A DNA stretch of 64,000 bases from Alphaproteobacteria bacterium (GTDB lineage: Bacteria > Pseudomonadota > Alphaproteobacteria > Rickettsiales > SXRF01), in contig JAGVLO010000003.1 in NCBI GenBank assembly GCA_020049775.1, positions 1-64,000 of the forward strand. Direction: 5' to 3'. Shown here in pieces: positions 47,104-54,590 of this stretch; position 1 is the stretch's first letter; every line of letters begins with the position of its first letter. The notes under the pieces were generated by a model. It saw nothing but the letters and a program-made list of their open reading frames with translations, was not told the origin of the DNA and made no database searches. Both the position numbers and the translations under genes were made by a program.

Positions 47104-48057
47104 ATGAAGTGCGCTAGGCTTGCATTACTAGTGATTATGCTGGCATCGGGTGCAGTGTTTTCTGCACAGGCTTCGGGCAAAACCAAAACCTTCACCATTT
47201 ACCAGCATCCCAACGCCACGGCAGCACCTACAAAAGATGTGGTGGCCAAGGATATTATGGATCCGGCGACAGCCGAGCTGGAAGCCATTATCAACAAGGC
47301 GCCGGATAACCCCAACGATTTGTATGGGCAGGCTTCGGCCGCTGATGATGCCGGAACTATCCCGCCGCTGCAACCGGCGGTGACTCTGCTGCCATTGCCG
47401 ACTTCCCAGGGGCAGGGCGTCGATACATGGGCGAGCCTGCTGGGTGGCGCCGACAGGTTGTTTAAGGCGGCGGGCATTACAGGCGCACTGCTGTTTATCG
47501 GAATGATAGGCGTCATAAGTTATGCGCAGTATAGTATGCTCAGGAAAGCCATTCAGGCGTCCGAGGCGGCATCACGTTCGGCGGCGCAGGCGGCGCTTGC
47601 CGTTCCCAGCGCGGAGCGCGCCTATATGTTCCTCGAACAGGATATCAGTGCTTCGGCTTTGCCGGTGACGGATTCTGCCGAGCCTGCACATTTCACCATC
47701 AAATTCAGTTTGCGGAATTACGGCAAAACACCTGCCGTGATTGATGAACTGCAGGCGAGCGGCACTTACCGCAATAGCGGCTATCCGGAAAACGCACAAG
47801 CGGCCAGTCATGCTGCCAGTCACGGTATGGTGGTGGGGTCGAATGAAAAAACGCCGCCTTTGACACTAGGATTCAATATTGCGCTTGCCGACCTCCAGCA
47901 GGCTTATGTCGGGCAGGGCCAGATACTGTTTTGGGGCAGGGTGATATATCGTGACGTGTTTGGCCAAAAGCATGAAACAGCCTTTTGCCGTGCCTATAAA
48001 TTTGAAGAAAAGACGTTTCATGTAGCGCAGGCTGATACGCTGAACTATCACACCTAG
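47104..48057 (+). CDS. Unrecognised envelope protein downstream of surA
   Basis: This 317-residue protein has no family I recognise. It has an N-terminal signal-like segment (LALLVIMLASGAVFSAQASG) and a polar Pro/Ala-rich region. A central membrane helix (ITGALLFIGMIGVISYAQYSML, about residues 122-145) follows. A beta-rich C-terminal domain comes last, with FTIKFSLRNYGKTPAVIDELQ and ILFWGRVIYRDVFG, recalling immunoglobulin-like folds. It starts 4 bases after surA, so it is likely co-expressed with lptD-surA. It is convergent with phaC, 3 bases apart. Confidence 0.72.
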   Translation: MKCARLALLVIMLASGAVFSAQASGKTKTFTIYQHPNATAAPTKDVVAKDIMDPATAELEAIINKAPDNPNDLYGQASAADDAGTIPPLQPAVTLLPLPTSQGQGVDTWASLLGGADRLFKAAGITGALLFIGMIGVISYAQYSMLRKAIQASEAASRSAAQAALAVPSAERAYMFLEQDISASALPVTDSAEPAHFTIKFSLRNYGKTPAVIDELQASGTYRNSGYPENAQAASHAASHGMVVGSNEKTPPLTLGFNIALADLQQAYVGQGQILFWGRVIYRDVFGQKHETAFCRAYKFEEKTFHVAQADTLNYHT

Positions 48058-48060
48058 GCG

Positions 48061-49872
48061 CTAGACAATCACCTTCACATAACTTCCGGGGGCATTTTCA
48101 ATCGGCTTGAGTTTGCCTTTGCCGGGAATGCGGGCGGGCACCTTCGGTCCGGCATAGGTTTTTTGCCAGTTATTGCAATCCGGCCACCACGAACCTGCCA
48201 CCTCTTTGGCATCCTTCAGCCATGCATCCGGCGATTTGGGCAGCGCGTTATTGGTCCAATAGCAGTATTTATTCTTGCTCGGTGGGTTGACCACACCTGC
48301 GATATGGCCGGACGCTGCCAGCACAAAACGCGTGCTGCCCTGATAAATCTGGGTGGAGGCATAGGTGGATTTCCACGGTGCGATATGGTCTTCGCGGGTG
48401 GACAGGATATAAGACGGCGTAGTGACGGTACGTAAATCGACAGGCACACCGGCGATTTTAAGCGCGCCGGGTTTTACCAGCATGTTCTTCTGGTACATGT
48501 TGCGCAGGTAGAAACTGTGCATGGTGGCGGGCATACGTGTGGAATCGGAATTCCAGTAGAGCAGGTCGAACGGGAAGGGGTCTTTACCCAGCAGATAGTT
48601 ATTTACTACGAATGACCAGATAAGGTCGTTGGCGCGCAGCATATTGAAGGTCATGGCCATTTGGCTGCCTTCTAAATATCCCTTCTGTGACATGCGTGTT
48701 TCCATCAGCTGGAGCTGTTCTTCGTCGATAAATACTGATAATTCGCCTGCTTCCGAGAAATCAATCATGGTGGTGAGGTACACGACCGATTTAACGCGGT
48801 CCTGCAGCTTTTTCGCGTGCAGCCATGCCAGCGTAATGGCGGTCAGTGTACCGCCAAGGCAGTAAGCCATGATGCTGATCGATTTTTCACCGGTGGCCTG
48901 CTCAATGGCGTCCATGGCGGCCAGCGGCCCTTCCATCATGTAATGGTCAAAACTTTTCTTGCCCAGCTTTTCGTCAGGGTTGACCCACGAGATGATGAAT
49001 ACGGTGTGACCCTGGTCAATCATCCAGCGTACGACCGAGTTTTCCGGCTGCAGGTCGAGAATATAATATTTATTTATCCATGCCGGAATCACCAGCACCG
49101 GAGTTTTGTTTACTTCCTTGGTGGTGGGTTCATACTGGATGAGCTGTATCAGGTCGTTTTGATAAATGACCTTACCCGGGGTGGTGGCAAGATTCTTGCC
49201 GATCTCAAAGGCGCTTTGGTCGGTCATGCTGATGCGCAGCTGGCCTTTTCCGCGTTCTAAATCCTCCAGCAGGTGCTGCAGGCCCTTGACCAGGTTCTCC
49301 CCTTTACTGTTGAGGGTAGCTTTTAGCACTTCCGGATTAGTCATCAGGAAGTTGCTGGGCGACATGGCGTCAACAAACTGGCGGGTATAAAAATCAATTT
49401 TGCGGGCGTTATGTTCGTCCAGTCCTTCGACATCAGTCACTGAACTCTGCATCCAGCGTGCGGTCAGCAGGTAGGATTGCTTGAGGAAATCAAACACGGT
49501 GCTTTCCTGCCATGCCTGATCCTTGAAGCGCTTATCGCGGCTGTCCGGCTCGATGACGGGTTTTTGGTCTTCGCCCAGCAGCTTTTGGGTGGTGGTCTGC
49601 AGCAGCGACATGTAATCCTGCCACAGGCTAATCTGCTTTTCCCACAGGCGCACGGGGTCGCTCATCATGTTGGTGAACAGCTCCATGAAGGCCTTGCCGA
49701 TATTAAGCGGGTCGAAGGGTATATTACCGATATCCTGACCATTACGGGACAGGAATTCCTGAAGTATCATGTGGCATTGCTCAGCGGCCTTGGCCATGTT
49801 CTTGGCCATCTCTGCGGCATCGGGTCCCGATGTCTGTGATGTTCCGTCTTTTTCTTTGCGCTGCGTTACCAT
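48061..49872 (-). CDS. phaC: Class I poly(3-hydroxyalkanoate) synthase
   Basis: PhaC polymerises hydroxyacyl-CoA into storage granules. The 603 residues include the PhaC N-terminal domain (DKRFKDQAWQESTVFDFLKQSYLLTARWM, partly quoted) and the lipase-like box AYCLGG with catalytic Cys338. The paired aspartate is in STREDHIAPW and the histidine in AASGHIAGVVNPP. Length matches class I enzymes that act without PhaE or PhaR. No phaA, phaB or phasin gene is in the window. The gene stands alone on the minus strand. Confidence 0.97.
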   Translation of the reverse strand: MVTQRKEKDGTSQTSGPDAAEMAKNMAKAAEQCHMILQEFLSRNGQDIGNIPFDPLNIGKAFMELFTNMMSDPVRLWEKQISLWQDYMSLLQTTTQKLLGEDQKPVIEPDSRDKRFKDQAWQESTVFDFLKQSYLLTARWMQSSVTDVEGLDEHNARKIDFYTRQFVDAMSPSNFLMTNPEVLKATLNSKGENLVKGLQHLLEDLERGKGQLRISMTDQSAFEIGKNLATTPGKVIYQNDLIQLIQYEPTTKEVNKTPVLVIPAWINKYYILDLQPENSVVRWMIDQGHTVFIISWVNPDEKLGKKSFDHYMMEGPLAAMDAIEQATGEKSISIMAYCLGGTLTAITLAWLHAKKLQDRVKSVVYLTTMIDFSEAGELSVFIDEEQLQLMETRMSQKGYLEGSQMAMTFNMLRANDLIWSFVVNNYLLGKDPFPFDLLYWNSDSTRMPATMHSFYLRNMYQKNMLVKPGALKIAGVPVDLRTVTTPSYILSTREDHIAPWKSTYASTQIYQGSTRFVLAASGHIAGVVNPPSKNKYCYWTNNALPKSPDAWLKDAKEVAGSWWPDCNNWQKTYAGPKVPARIPGKGKLKPIENAPGSYVKVIV

Positions 49873-50118
49873 TGATACTCGCTTTCCAAGATTTTCTATT
49901 CCAGACCGCTGGCCGCTTTGACAGATTTGTTCTGGTGCGGGGGTCAGTCAAAAACTGGGCTATATTTATAGTAAATAGGTAATTGCACAACGGCTTTTGC
50001 TGGGATATATGTGTTAACTGCATTGGCCGGAAAGGGGCGGTTTGTATTAACCGCATGAAATACCGGCTGTATTTATATAACGAAGAACGACCCCACAGGT
50101 CAGGCTAGGTTGATTGGT

Positions 50119-52446
50119 ATGAAGCAGACATCTACTGGGTTATATACGGGGTTAAAATTGCGCACGCTGCTGCTTACCAGCGTTTCCAGCGTCGTATTGC
50201 TCAGCGGCTGCGAAACTTACCAGAACATCAAATATAATTTTTTCAATATACGTCCGGCACAGCAGGTTGAGGGCGAGCGCCGCATGCCGATGCTTAACAC
50301 GCGCTACACAGGTTATGGTGTTCCCGACGCGCCCCAAGCTCAGGCTGCACCGCAGCAGGCCGCGCGCGCGCCTGCCGCTCAGACGGCTGCGCCGGCTTCA
50401 GCCCCAACGCCTTATGACCAGTTTGATGCACAGGGCAATGCCCAGGCTCCGCAAATGCAGCCGATGGTTGTTACTCCGCAACCTCAAGCGGCTGCCCAGC
50501 CAGCAACGCTGCCTGCCGCAAAACCTGCTCCGCAGGCATCCGAGGGAAATTTCTTTACCCGTATGTTTAATGATAACAGCTCAGGCAGCGAAAAGCCGGC
50601 AGCACGAAAACAATTCCCGGGCAACCCCATGCATTCCAAGCATACGGAATCGGCAGCTCCTGTCCCGCAGGGTCCGCTGACGCCGCCGGTGGAAGGCGCT
50701 ATTCCGCTTGGTGATGATACGGCTGACATGAAACTGATGCCAGAATCGCCGGAGCCAACCGCTCCGTTGCTGGACAAGCAGGTATCTGCTACGCCGCCTT
50801 CTGATGCGCCGTGGTGGCAACGGCCTGCCTCTTCAGAGCAGAAAACATCTGCCGTGATTGCGCCAAAAGAGCAGCCGAGCGCACCTTTGGTGGAGCAGGT
50901 TCAGGAAATGCCGAAGACCGCAGAAATCCCTGCTCCTGTTGCGGAAGCAAGGCCAGTGGTGGTGCTTGGGCCAGAAACAGACCAGTCGGCAGATAAGACG
51001 GAAACTCAGCAGGCCGACGCCATACCGTTTGACTACGAGCCGCAGGAGCCGGGTGAAGAAACCACCGTTTCCAGGCTTTCCGACAAGAAAAACAAGCCGC
51101 AGCCTAACTGGTTTGAGCGTAATTTTAGCCGCACCGGTAAGAAGAGCGAGCCGGTGAAGCAAAATAGTGACGTGGAATTTGTAAGAGTCGCGCCGGATGT
51201 GCAGGAAAGCAAGTCTGCTGTCATGGGCAATGAACTTGCCACCAAAGCCGATACCGTCAAGCCACAGGAGCAGGTGTATGCTGCCGCCGCGCCAGAGCAG
51301 ACACAAACGCAAACCACCTCCAAGCGCACATGGATCGAGCGTGTGCTGGGCTTCAAGGATGCCCCGACACCAGAACAGCAGGCGCCATATCCAAACGTGG
51401 CTTCCGTGCCACCGACGCCGGACACGTTTGATGCCATCAAGGGCGCTACGCCGCTGGCTATGGAAGAGATGGAAGCTGATCGTGATCAGGCCGTAGTCAG
51501 CAAAATGGAACTGAATAGCGAGCCGTCCGGACAGGCCGTCGCGCCGATGGCTGAAAGCCAGCCGGCAAATCCTGAACCCGCAACTCCAGTTGTTTCAAAT
51601 CCGATTACTCCGGCTGGTGGCGATGCGCAATTGCTGGGCCATGTATCCGACCCGCCAAAAATGGAAAAGCCGGAGGGCAAAGCCACAGACAGCAAACAGC
51701 TTAAAACCAAGCCTGCTGATGGTGTTGCGCCTGCACAAACAGAAGCAGACGGCGAGGAAAAAGACGATCAGGAATGGCCAAGCAAACCTTCTTCTTCGTT
51801 GACTGTGCCGCCTGTGGTTGCCGCGGAACCTGTAATTACCAAGCCGGAAACTGCGTCTTCACAATCAGCGGAAAAACCAAAGGAAGAAAAATCTTTCCTG
51901 AAGTCGGTTGCATGGCCGTGGCAGGATAAAAAATCTGCTAGCGAAAGCGCTGAAACAAAACCGGCCGAGCCAGGTGCCGAAGCCGTGAAGTTGCAAGCCG
52001 TGAACGCGCCGGAAGAGCCATCCATGCAGCAGGGTCTTACTGCCCTGTCATGGGACGACGAGCCGGCTGTCCCTGCCGCTGTGAATGATCCTGTTGCGCC
52101 GCTGGTACCCCAACCTGCTATACAAAAAGCGGCGGCGCCTGCCGAAATGGTTGTACCCGCGCAGACTCCGTCACCGGCATGGGTGGCCACATCCGCCGGC
52201 GGCACTCCGCCTGCTGCGGCCATAGCGCCGCCTGTGCCTGATTTTGCCACCAGCCAGCCGGAAAATTCACTGCCGCCACTGGCAGCGCAAGCACCCAAGC
52301 TGCAGACGAAAGAGGAAGAGCAGAAAGCGGCAAGCGCCGCTGTTGAATCTTCTGGCGGTACCGCGCTACCCTCGCCGCAGCTGCTGCAGAAGGTAAAGCC
52401 GCTGCCGCCGTCGCGCTATGAAACCCGCCGCAAGCAAGCCCAATAA
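50119..52446 (+). CDS. Large Pro/Ala-rich lipoprotein with spaced aromatic motifs
   Basis: From the ATG at 50119 (a TTG at 50110 is the alternative) there are 775 residues. A lipoprotein signal ends in LLSGC, with the lipidated residue at Cys31. After a short conserved-looking part (ETYQNIKYNFFNIRP) the chain is almost wholly low-complexity, rich in Pro, Ala, Glu, Lys and Gln, and probably disordered. Five short aromatic/basic motifs punctuate it: NFFTRMF (144), PWWQRP (231), NWFERNF (330), TWIERVLGF (404) and SFLKSVAWPW (592). I do not recognise the family. A periplasm-spanning tether is plausible but unproven. It stands alone, divergent from phaC. Confidence 0.8.
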   Translation: MKQTSTGLYTGLKLRTLLLTSVSSVVLLSGCETYQNIKYNFFNIRPAQQVEGERRMPMLNTRYTGYGVPDAPQAQAAPQQAARAPAAQTAAPASAPTPYDQFDAQGNAQAPQMQPMVVTPQPQAAAQPATLPAAKPAPQASEGNFFTRMFNDNSSGSEKPAARKQFPGNPMHSKHTESAAPVPQGPLTPPVEGAIPLGDDTADMKLMPESPEPTAPLLDKQVSATPPSDAPWWQRPASSEQKTSAVIAPKEQPSAPLVEQVQEMPKTAEIPAPVAEARPVVVLGPETDQSADKTETQQADAIPFDYEPQEPGEETTVSRLSDKKNKPQPNWFERNFSRTGKKSEPVKQNSDVEFVRVAPDVQESKSAVMGNELATKADTVKPQEQVYAAAAPEQTQTQTTSKRTWIERVLGFKDAPTPEQQAPYPNVASVPPTPDTFDAIKGATPLAMEEMEADRDQAVVSKMELNSEPSGQAVAPMAESQPANPEPATPVVSNPITPAGGDAQLLGHVSDPPKMEKPEGKATDSKQLKTKPADGVAPAQTEADGEEKDDQEWPSKPSSSLTVPPVVAAEPVITKPETASSQSAEKPKEEKSFLKSVAWPWQDKKSASESAETKPAEPGAEAVKLQAVNAPEEPSMQQGLTALSWDDEPAVPAAVNDPVAPLVPQPAIQKAAAPAEMVVPAQTPSPAWVATSAGGTPPAAAIAPPVPDFATSQPENSLPPLAAQAPKLQTKEEEQKAASAAVESSGGTALPSPQLLQKVKPLPPSRYETRRKQAQ

Positions 52447-52503: not shown

Positions 52504-53715
52504 ATGAACGATGATTTTTACCGTATTAAGCGGCTTCCGCCATATGTGTTTGCCGAAGTAAACAAGATGAAGGCTGCAGCCCGCGCCAGCGGCTGCGACA
52601 TTATCGATTTTGGGATGGGCAACCCCGATTCCGCCCCGCCCGCGCATGTTATCGACAAGATGCGCGAAACCCTCAAGGATCCCAAGGTACACCGCTATTC
52701 GCTGTCACGCGGGATTCAGGGGTTGCGCCGCGCGCAGGCAGGCTATTACCAGAAACGTTTTGGTGTTGAGCTGGATCCGGAAGCGGAAGTGGTGGTCACT
52801 ATCGGTTCCAAGGAAGGCCTCGCTAACATGGCTCAGGCCATCAGCGGCCCGGGGGATTGTTTTATCGTACCCGACCCGTGCTACCCCATCCATATCTGGG
52901 GTTTTGTGATTGTCGGCTGCGAGGTTATCTCTATTCCCAACACGCCGGACGCATCTTTCTTCACTCACTTGAAACAGGCGCTCGATACCGCGCAACGCAA
53001 GCCGGTGGCGATGATCGTCAATTTCCCCTGCAACCCCACGTCAGCAGTGGTTGATTTATCCTTCTATGAGCAGTTGGTGGATATCTGCAAACATTACGGC
53101 ATCTATATCCTGTCCGACCTTGCCTACTGCGAGCTTTATTACGACGGCAAGCCGCCACCTTCCATCCTGCAGGTCAAGGGCGCTAAAGATATTGCTGTAG
53201 AATTCACTAGCATCAGCAAGACCTATTCTATGGCGGGCTGGCGCATCGGCTTCTGCGTGGGCAATAAAAAGCTGGTTGGAGCGCTAACCAAAATCAAATC
53301 CTACCTCGATTACGGCACGTTCCTGCCGGTGCAGGTGGCGGCGACCGCCGCCATTAACGGCCCGCAGGACTATGTCACCAATCTGCGCGCCATGTACAAG
53401 GAGCGCCGCGATATCCTTGCCGAAGGGTTGGAAGAGGCAAACTGGAATGTTCCGTTGCCGGATGCATCCATGTTTTTCTGGGCGCCGATACCTGAGGCCT
53501 ATAAGAAAATCGGCTGCCTTGAATTTTCCAAGCTGCTGCTCAAACACGCCGATGTGGCGGTGGCGCCGGGCGTCGGCTTTGGTCCGGGCGGCGAGGGGTA
53601 TGTGCGTATCGCGCTGGTGGAAAACAAGCACCGCATCCGTCAGGCTATGCGTAACGTGAAACAGTTCCTGCAGCTCGATCCGGAAAAGCAAATCCATGAA
53701 CTGGAGAAGGCATGA
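52504..53715 (+). CDS. alaC: Aminotransferase, AlaC type
   Basis: This is a class I/II PLP aminotransferase of 403 residues, closely like E. coli AlaC in motif order. Shared blocks are RIKRLPPYVFAEVNKMKAAAR, DIIDFGMGNPD, VVTIGSKEGLANMAQA and the PLP lysine Lys239 in SISKTYSMAGWRIGFCVGN. It probably makes alanine from pyruvate and glutamate, though related enzymes serve lysine or methionine pathways. Its stop overlaps the next gene; hom and glpX follow, an order common in alphaproteobacteria. Confidence 0.92.
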   Translation: MNDDFYRIKRLPPYVFAEVNKMKAAARASGCDIIDFGMGNPDSAPPAHVIDKMRETLKDPKVHRYSLSRGIQGLRRAQAGYYQKRFGVELDPEAEVVVTIGSKEGLANMAQAISGPGDCFIVPDPCYPIHIWGFVIVGCEVISIPNTPDASFFTHLKQALDTAQRKPVAMIVNFPCNPTSAVVDLSFYEQLVDICKHYGIYILSDLAYCELYYDGKPPPSILQVKGAKDIAVEFTSISKTYSMAGWRIGFCVGNKKLVGALTKIKSYLDYGTFLPVQVAATAAINGPQDYVTNLRAMYKERRDILAEGLEEANWNVPLPDASMFFWAPIPEAYKKIGCLEFSKLLLKHADVAVAPGVGFGPGGEGYVRIALVENKHRIRQAMRNVKQFLQLDPEKQIHELEKA

Positions 53716-54590
53716 TGAATCCGTCTGCATCTGATATAAGCCGTGCAGTAGAACTGGTGCGCACACCCGAAAGCCTTCGTGATGCTGACGAGCAGGCATT
53801 CCTGCTGCAATTCCAGCAAGAGCATTTGCAATTTGGCGATGCCGATCCGTCGAGCGTAGCGGCAAAACTTTCCACACAGCCGCTTGAGCTGTTTGAAATT
53901 TATCAGGCGTTGCGCACGGAAGAACTGCGCCGGAATCCGCCCGCAGAGCAGCCGGAAGTGTATGCATTTAGAGAAGAAGAAACAGCACCGGTCACACCGA
54001 TTAAAGAAAAAGAGCCAAAAAAGCACACGCCAAAACGGGTAAAGGCGGAAGTGGCGGAAGACGATGACATGGCCCTTCTGATTGATGCTGCCGAAAAAGA
54101 AATAAGCGATGATGAGGACGAAAAGAAAAAGCCCAAGGAAAAGAAATACGCCAGGGGCGACGCACCGTCCAGCGGTCCGCGCACGGCGCAGGGCAGCGTG
54201 ATGGCAACACTTGACCAGCACGGTATGCTCGATGATGATGCGGCACGGGATATGGTCAGTCGTGACAACGGCACTAAATGGAAAGACCGTGCCAATACGG
54301 CGGTCAAGGTAACGCTGGCGGGATTATTGGCTTTAGGCGGGTATTTTGGTGTCCGTGCCGCGCTGGCAACTAAAAAAGCCGCTGAAGATGTGGGCGGTAA
54401 GGTAGAACAGATACAGGATCGGGTCGGGCAATTTGCCGAAGATATCAGCGCCAATCCCCATTCGCCGCTGCCGGGTCAAGGCAAACATACTGCCGCCGAA
54501 CAGGAAAAACGTGCCGTGCAAAAGCAAGGTGAACAGGGCAAAAAAGACAATGACAAACAAGAAAATAATATAAAAGGCAAAGGCCGCTAA
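53712..54590 (+). CDS. Unrecognised charged membrane-anchored protein between alaC and hom
   Basis: This 292-residue protein is not recognised. Its ATG overlaps the alaC stop and its TAA directly abuts the hom start, so it is embedded in the operon. Residues 1-75 are helical and soluble. Residues 80-170 are highly charged (KEKEPKKHTPKRVKAEV, then an Asp/Glu/Lys-rich run). One membrane helix lies near 197-218 (VKVTLAGLLALGGYFGVRAALA). The tail is Lys/Gln-rich and disordered. No catalytic motif is visible, and nothing links it to homoserine synthesis except position. Confidence 0.72.
   Translation: MMNPSASDISRAVELVRTPESLRDADEQAFLLQFQQEHLQFGDADPSSVAAKLSTQPLELFEIYQALRTEELRRNPPAEQPEVYAFREEETAPVTPIKEKEPKKHTPKRVKAEVAEDDDMALLIDAAEKEISDDEDEKKKPKEKKYARGDAPSSGPRTAQGSVMATLDQHGMLDDDAARDMVSRDNGTKWKDRANTAVKVTLAGLLALGGYFGVRAALATKKAAEDVGGKVEQIQDRVGQFAEDISANPHSPLPGQGKHTAAEQEKRAVQKQGEQGKKDNDKQENNIKGKGR

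Follow-up and report, generated by a model that had tools for sequence, protein, structure and literature searches.

Syntenic alphaproteobacterial lipoproteins with no detected wall-binding domain in one order and a multiplied aromatic motif in one of its families

The window, a 64,000-nucleotide stretch of DNA from an uncultured alphaproteobacterial group, encodes a disordered lipoprotein that belongs to a set of syntenic lipoproteins. In one order these proteins carry no detected wall-binding domain, and in one family of that order a short aromatic sticker motif under selection has been multiplied. An earlier note had described the protein as a giant disordered lipoprotein with aromatic motifs about every 75-100 residues, resembling beads on a tether that might dock a repeated partner such as peptidoglycan enzymes or membranes. 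The observation was partly right, and the interpretation was reasonable but incomplete, with support for part of it.

The lipoprotein, its locus and its relatives

The gene lies between a divergent phaC and an aminotransferase gene, the arrangement that marks its family, and was read from the ATG at 50119; the upstream sequence also holds an in-frame TTG at 50110 as an alternative start. The product of the downstream gene we take to be of the aminotransferase class (AAT). The features of the locus and of the protein were as follows.

48061..49872, minus strand: phaC (PHA synthase), divergent, synteny marker (Pfam PhaC_N, 7e-81)
50119..52446, plus strand: disordered lipoprotein gene (775 residues)
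50197..50211, plus strand: lipobox LLSGC, residues 27-31 (Cys31 invariant in 12 aligned family proteins)
50272..50298, plus strand: GERRMPMLN, residues 52-60, the conserved GxRRxPxLN near the lipid anchor (G, P and N invariant in 12)
50410..50427, plus strand: PYDQFD element, residues 98-103 (consensus PYDxYD)
50605..50628, plus strand: RKQFPGNP, residues 163-170, RKPLxGNPY element after the aromatic motif (family alignment)
51382..51528, plus strand: SVPP element, APYPNVASVPPTP...EPS, residues 422-470, a Pro turn and a helix at 435-466 (best conserved part)
51631..51654, plus strand: LLGHVSDP, residues 505-512 (also in some relatives, e.g. LLGHVSAP in L028)
52366..52443, plus strand: C-terminal tail, LPSPQLLQKVKPLPPSRYETRRKQAQ, residues 750-775 (modelled helices 753-756 and 766-774)
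52504..53715, plus strand: aminotransferase gene, synteny marker (found in relatives by search)

The LLSGC lipobox gives the protein a bacterial lipoprotein signal, as judged from the sequence and not by a dedicated signal-peptide predictor. The mature chain is Pro/Ala-rich, as the earlier note had it, with alanine and proline making up about 30%. Its disorder was likewise borne out by an AlphaFold2 model based on a 12-row alignment, which had a mean pLDDT of 47.8 and values below 50 at 555 of the 775 residues. Helices were modelled at the signal peptide (7-37), at two aromatic motif copies (145-150 and 406-409), at the SVPP element (435-466) and in the tail (753-756 and 766-774).

The window protein matched no Pfam family at E<=1 and had no significant match in NCBIfam or PDB, so annotation pipelines built on these collections would leave it unnamed. 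The sole PDB profile match, cytochrome c1 (E 0.048), was taken as a low-complexity chance match, and the best NCBIfam matches of the members (E 0.006-0.23) were set aside, none being common to more than two of the 12. A limited literature search in one library found no description of this lipoprotein family and nothing relevant on Micavibrio lipoproteins.

A first scan of genome contigs with the window protein returned no relative. Direct protein search hit 6 of 55 near genomes, counting the window's own, and the matches were mostly fragments. The neighbouring aminotransferase gene was found in 14 of the 16 family genomes, again including the window's own, and we took the stretches upstream of it in the other 13 together with one contig of G012. 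Eleven relatives encoded a lipoprotein of 264 to 1141 residues alignable with the window protein. Wherever a relative's gene was whole (10/10), the aminotransferase gene stood downstream and a divergent phaC on the opposite flank; the G012 contig breaks off within the lipoprotein gene and includes phaC. Four genomes were left out of the protein alignments, namely G002, G001 and G014 (contig ends) and G008 (no AAT match). The G002 fragment (L037:1188-1838, minus strand) holds only the C-terminal part, an extreme poly-Pro/Asn-Pro sequence with no visible aromatic motif that ends in LPESRYVARSIAVAAHMTIE and still has LPESRYVAR near its end.

In the family alignment Cys31, GxRRxPxLN, RKPLxGNPY and above all the SVPP element are kept, the last with invariant S, V, P, P, A and E over 54 residues. 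At E<=0.1, an SVPP profile found matches in 24 of 131 order genomes. Among 14 distant order loci, phaC stood beside 10 and the aminotransferase gene beside 11; the weakest of the 14 are probably chance matches. A further 19 order loci were taken upstream of the aminotransferase gene. Eight lie in genomes that the SVPP profile had matched, and nearly all of the 19 encoded a Pro-rich lipoprotein or its C-terminal part. Order members also carry RxPxLN-like stretches and, by eye, R[RK]xPxxN, which is similar to the RKPLxGNPY element. The chain in the order ends in a short basic LPxSRYxxRR; an SRY/SKY tail was present in 26 of 31 order and family proteins, compared with 2.4% of shuffled tails. The five proteins without it include the family members G011, G007, G005 and G012.

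Several observations were made beside these. At L117, upstream of an aminotransferase gene, we found a 126-residue lipoprotein with a lipobox, an SVPP element and nothing else recognisable, possibly a minimal form of the family. In genus g4, L027 (residues 414-425), L026 and L038 have in common a second element, PRRGxDIMTQxxWExx, with a modelled helix in G009. Genome G125, from another family, holds on contig C21 (L049/L142) a family-like gene with repeated motif and an aminotransferase 77% identical to the window's. Since G125 has its own, more typical aminotransferase copy at C3, contig C21 is probably mis-binned from a family member, and it was excluded from the count of order members with repeats. 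Within the window, 47104-48057 (plus strand) follows a SurA-like gene and encodes 317 residues that include an internal hydrophobic segment and match no Pfam family at E<=1; 53712-54590 (plus strand) overlaps the end of the aminotransferase gene, and its charged 292-residue product has a single hydrophobic segment and matches nothing significantly in Pfam.

The aromatic motif and its conservation

Five strings had been proposed as motifs, and all five stand at the residues given for them. Scored with a matrix built only on other genera (28 instances picked by hand), those at 144, 330 and 404 stood as copies of the repeated motif, while those at 231 and 592 were rejected.

50548..50571, plus strand: motif copy 1, NFFTRMFN, residues 144-151 (found by held-out search; 25.6 bits; helix 145-150)
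50809..50826, plus strand: PWWQRP, residues 231-236, not the repeated motif (3.5 bits)
51106..51129, plus strand: motif copy 2, NWFERNFS, residues 330-337 (found by held-out search; 15.0 bits; no helix modelled)
51328..51354, plus strand: motif copy 3, TWIERVLGF, residues 404-412 (7.7 bits, weak; helix 406-409)
51892..51921, plus strand: SFLKSVAWPW, residues 592-601, unsupported as a motif copy (-0.9 bits)

Copy 3 directly precedes the SVPP element, and several relatives have a copy at the same place. PWWQRP resembles APWxxR of genus g4. The third-best window of the protein, GGDAQLLGH at residue 500 (10.7 bits), was read as the LLGHVSDP element and not as a motif copy.

The regular spacing of 75-100 residues was rejected. 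The intervals of 87, 99, 74 and 188 residues (CV 0.40) were matched in evenness by 10.5% of 20,000 random placements, and the corresponding values for five other family members with at least three motifs were 7-69%. Aromatics nevertheless cluster beyond composition in the window protein: three adjacent F/W pairs lie after residue 51 compared with 0.65 expected, a number reached in 233 of 10,000 shuffles.

Across the 12 mature family proteins the motif pattern gave 26 matches versus 2.0 expected, and none of 2000 shuffles reached 26. This pattern was written after inspection of the sequences, and an unsupervised leave-one-genus-out search served as the independent test. With the window's genus withheld, the search found PSFFDRLFG in the other eleven proteins. 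The two best windows of this model in the protein of G000, the window's genome, were GNFFTRMFN (26.3 bits) and PNWFERNFS (12.1 bits), and its count of windows of at least 8 bits was matched in 1 of 300 shuffles.

The eight-residue consensus over 31 instances was [SN]-[FW]-F-x-R-[LM]-[FL]-[GS], written in its simpler form with G at the last position, with arginine in 23 of 31 and serine or asparagine ahead of the aromatic pair in 23 of 31. These instances were hand-picked, weak ones included, and their register is off by one between analyses in G007 (185/186) and G005 (91/92). Not every family member has a clear motif: the pattern had no match in G007 and G005, and the held-out model found no window in G011 and one moderate window in G005. 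Copies per family protein ranged from 1 to 6 and rose with chain length (Spearman 0.72, p 0.008, n=12, uncorrected for kinship). By eye, repeated copies are absent from most of the order, and several of its members have a single aromatic motif ahead of the R[RK]xPxxN stretch. At the DNA level the motif codons were not enriched (24 matches in G000 versus 28 in the reversed control), as expected because the pattern is so short.

The earlier note also raised the question of whether motifs are conserved while linkers vary. Within the family this largely proved to be so, although the spacing is irregular and two of the five strings do not belong to the motif. In G004 and G009, a sister pair, motif copies are better kept than their flanks; between the two, 26 of 40 motif residues were identical versus 305 of 940 linker residues (Fisher p 5e-5). 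In G006 a 69-base repeat gave rise to two motif copies 51 residues apart; 6 of the 7 motif codons differ between them, with 6 synonymous and 0 non-synonymous changes, while 7 of 17 flanking codons differ non-synonymously. The motif is therefore under purifying selection while the linkers drift, and across the family the linkers barely align (mean column identity 20%). The other comparisons were weaker, with a slight excess of motif identity in the g6 pairs and none in pairs with G012, for both of which alignments of the disordered chains are unreliable.

The OmpA-domain form at the same locus

Relatives outside the order (Magnetovibrio, Rhodospirillaceae bacterium and others) have at the same place a lipoprotein with an OmpA domain. 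Pfam detected OmpA in 5 of the 7 same-place proteins scanned outside the order (E 1e-9 to 9e-14); of the remaining two, L076 is identical in sequence to L130, a locus of the order, and L086 carries the order's tail. Outside the family, 28 class loci upstream of AAT were searched: 12 had an OmpA match, 4 more had SVPP alone and 12 had neither. The OmpA model used for this count was home-made from the five Pfam-positive domains, none of whose loci is among the 28. Some of the searched loci also contributed rows to the SVPP model, and matches there are partly by construction, as are those at the five OmpA seed loci.

OmpA (PF00691) was detected in 0 of 10 order proteins by Pfam and in 0 of 19 order loci by the home-made model, and in the window protein Pfam found no C-terminal OmpA peptidoglycan-binding domain at E<=1. 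Each of the 16 family genomes has OmpA domains in other places, with 8 matches in the window's own, and thus only the gene at the phaC/aminotransferase locus is concerned.

The two forms have in common the SVPP helix pattern YPxLxxVPxxP. Their SVPP elements aligned by hhalign with a probability of 95.5 (E 1.4e-8), compared with at most 13.8 for 100 column-shuffled controls and 0.5 for the reversed control. On this profile comparison the two elements are judged homologous. The OmpA form may be the ancestral one. Because the lipoprotein takes the place that a lipoprotein with a wall-binding domain occupies in relatives, it looks like a re-anchored envelope tether.

Proposed docking, alternatives and known systems

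Our best explanation, held with middling confidence, is that the phaC/AAT-locus family is an OmpA tether whose form in the window's order exchanged OmpA for the tail and then, in the window's family, multiplied a docking motif. Elsewhere in the class the family would be an OmpA-type tether from the outer membrane to peptidoglycan, laid out as lipid anchor, SVPP helix element, Pro-rich linker and OmpA domain. The window's order would have lost this domain, its chain ending instead in the short, basic LPxSRYxxRR helix. Growth of the chain would have followed in the window's family, where an N-capped short-helix motif, [SN]-[FW]-F-x-R-[LM]-[FL]-G, would have been multiplied to as many as six copies. 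One end of the chain would be held by the lipid anchor and its conserved neighbouring residues, with the SVPP helix and basic tail as single docking points. The motif has an N-cap residue and a nearly fixed arginine and resembles a short helix whose folding would be induced by contact. AlphaFold2 modelled a helix at 2 of 3 copies in the window protein and at 1 of 6 in G009, where local confidence exceeded 50 at 4 of 6. Through folding on contact, each copy would bind one repeated partner weakly, and the copies together multivalently and with added avidity; the partner would most likely be a protein, e.g. a porin or cell-wall protein. The window protein would thus act as a tether or scaffold, probably at the outer membrane, on a chain that should be long enough to cross the periplasm.

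The aromatic motifs could instead be membrane-targeting amphipathic helices like the MinD tail, gripping the same or a facing membrane at many points as a molecular Velcro, a reading that we consider possible but rather unlikely. The motif is close to the E. coli MinD tail KGFLKRLFGG (from an excerpt of PMC5471200). Averaged over the instances, the hydrophobic moment has its maximum at 70-90 degrees, which is helix-like, and at 100 degrees reaches 0.42 compared with 0.23 in random windows of the same proteins, which is the pattern of an amphipathic short helix with a hydrophobic face. Motif windows are also less acidic than the chain (+0.23 versus -0.69, n=31). The MinD likeness and the hydrophobic moment thus speak for membrane docking, while the arginine, nearly fixed where a membrane helix would accept lysine, and the net acidic flanks in some species (-3 for the G006 copies) speak for docking on a protein. 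In addition, the MinD tail acts on the cytoplasmic side, and no MinD was found above the family cut-off in the 16 family genomes, which leaves no local sequence for comparison.

By analogy with PapS, the motif might bind one specific periplasmic or outer-membrane protein beside the fixed lipoprotein site, the copies serving avidity only and forming no scaffold; we think this improbable. The single motif that precedes R[RK]xPxxN in several order members, as seen by eye, suggests a bipartite protein-binding unit, and tryptophans W22 and W58 of PapS bind Por41 (in an excerpt of PMC11369160). That the protein is a decaying relic of an OmpA lipoprotein, its Pro/Ala-rich linker drifting in length and its aromatic clusters due to chance, is very improbable and was already disfavoured: lengths of 264 to 1141 residues, poorly alignable linkers and the Pro-rich G002 version would suit it, but the SVPP element, the N-terminal RRxPxLN and the SRY tail are strongly conserved, the duplicated G006 motif changed only synonymously and the gene is held in place through the order.

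Returning to the exchanged and multiplied tether, a bolder form of the idea is that an envelope tether gave up its folded domain for peptidoglycan binding and gained in exchange a disordered chain on which an array of stickers grows, so that bridging or clustering is set by motif number and length. We offer this as a speculation that is probably too strong; such a tether may connect both membranes directly, or make a partner condense beneath the outer membrane. Attachment of the outer membrane to the wall in Alphaproteobacteria is only partly known. One syntenic gene in three states (folded domain, none detectable, multiplying stickers) provides a natural series for multivalent periplasmic tethers, and the conserved motif peptides are a defined bait for finding the partner.

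Known systems resemble the window protein in different respects. EPYC1-type linker proteins have short helical stickers spaced along a disordered chain. The window's family likewise has a repeated, conserved sticker within a disordered chain and differs by irregular copies and spacing, the stickers being no more evenly placed than by chance. The tail of E. coli MinD is cytoplasmic and forms the C-terminus of an ATPase, unlike the motifs here. The likeness lies in the sequence KGFLKRLFGG, which resembles the motif consensus (excerpt of PMC5471200). DalA of Rhodobacter sphaeroides is, as the window protein would be, an alphaproteobacterial lipoprotein of the outer membrane and is a proposed wall-enzyme scaffold; compared by description only, it differs in being about 18 kDa and in itself binding peptidoglycan (excerpt of PMC10470522).

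PapS of Rhodospirillum rubrum, an OmpA-domain lipoprotein that binds porins via two tryptophans (excerpt of PMC11369160), may serve as a working analogue. The likeness would be that of an alphaproteobacterial outer-membrane lipoprotein that bridges the envelope and in which aromatics matter for partner binding. By description only, PapS differs in its structured N-terminal domain, short linker and OmpA domain (same excerpt), the last absent from the window protein by Pfam. Closest in position are the OmpA lipoproteins of the phaC/aminotransferase locus, e.g. that of Magnetovibrio blakemorei (L083). They differ in their C-terminal PF00691, not found in the window protein or its order, and no repeated aromatic motif was noted in them. 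They have in common with the window protein the same place, a lipobox and a disordered-looking Pro-rich middle, and several OmpA forms of the class, though not L083 itself, which gave no SVPP match, also carry the SVPP element.
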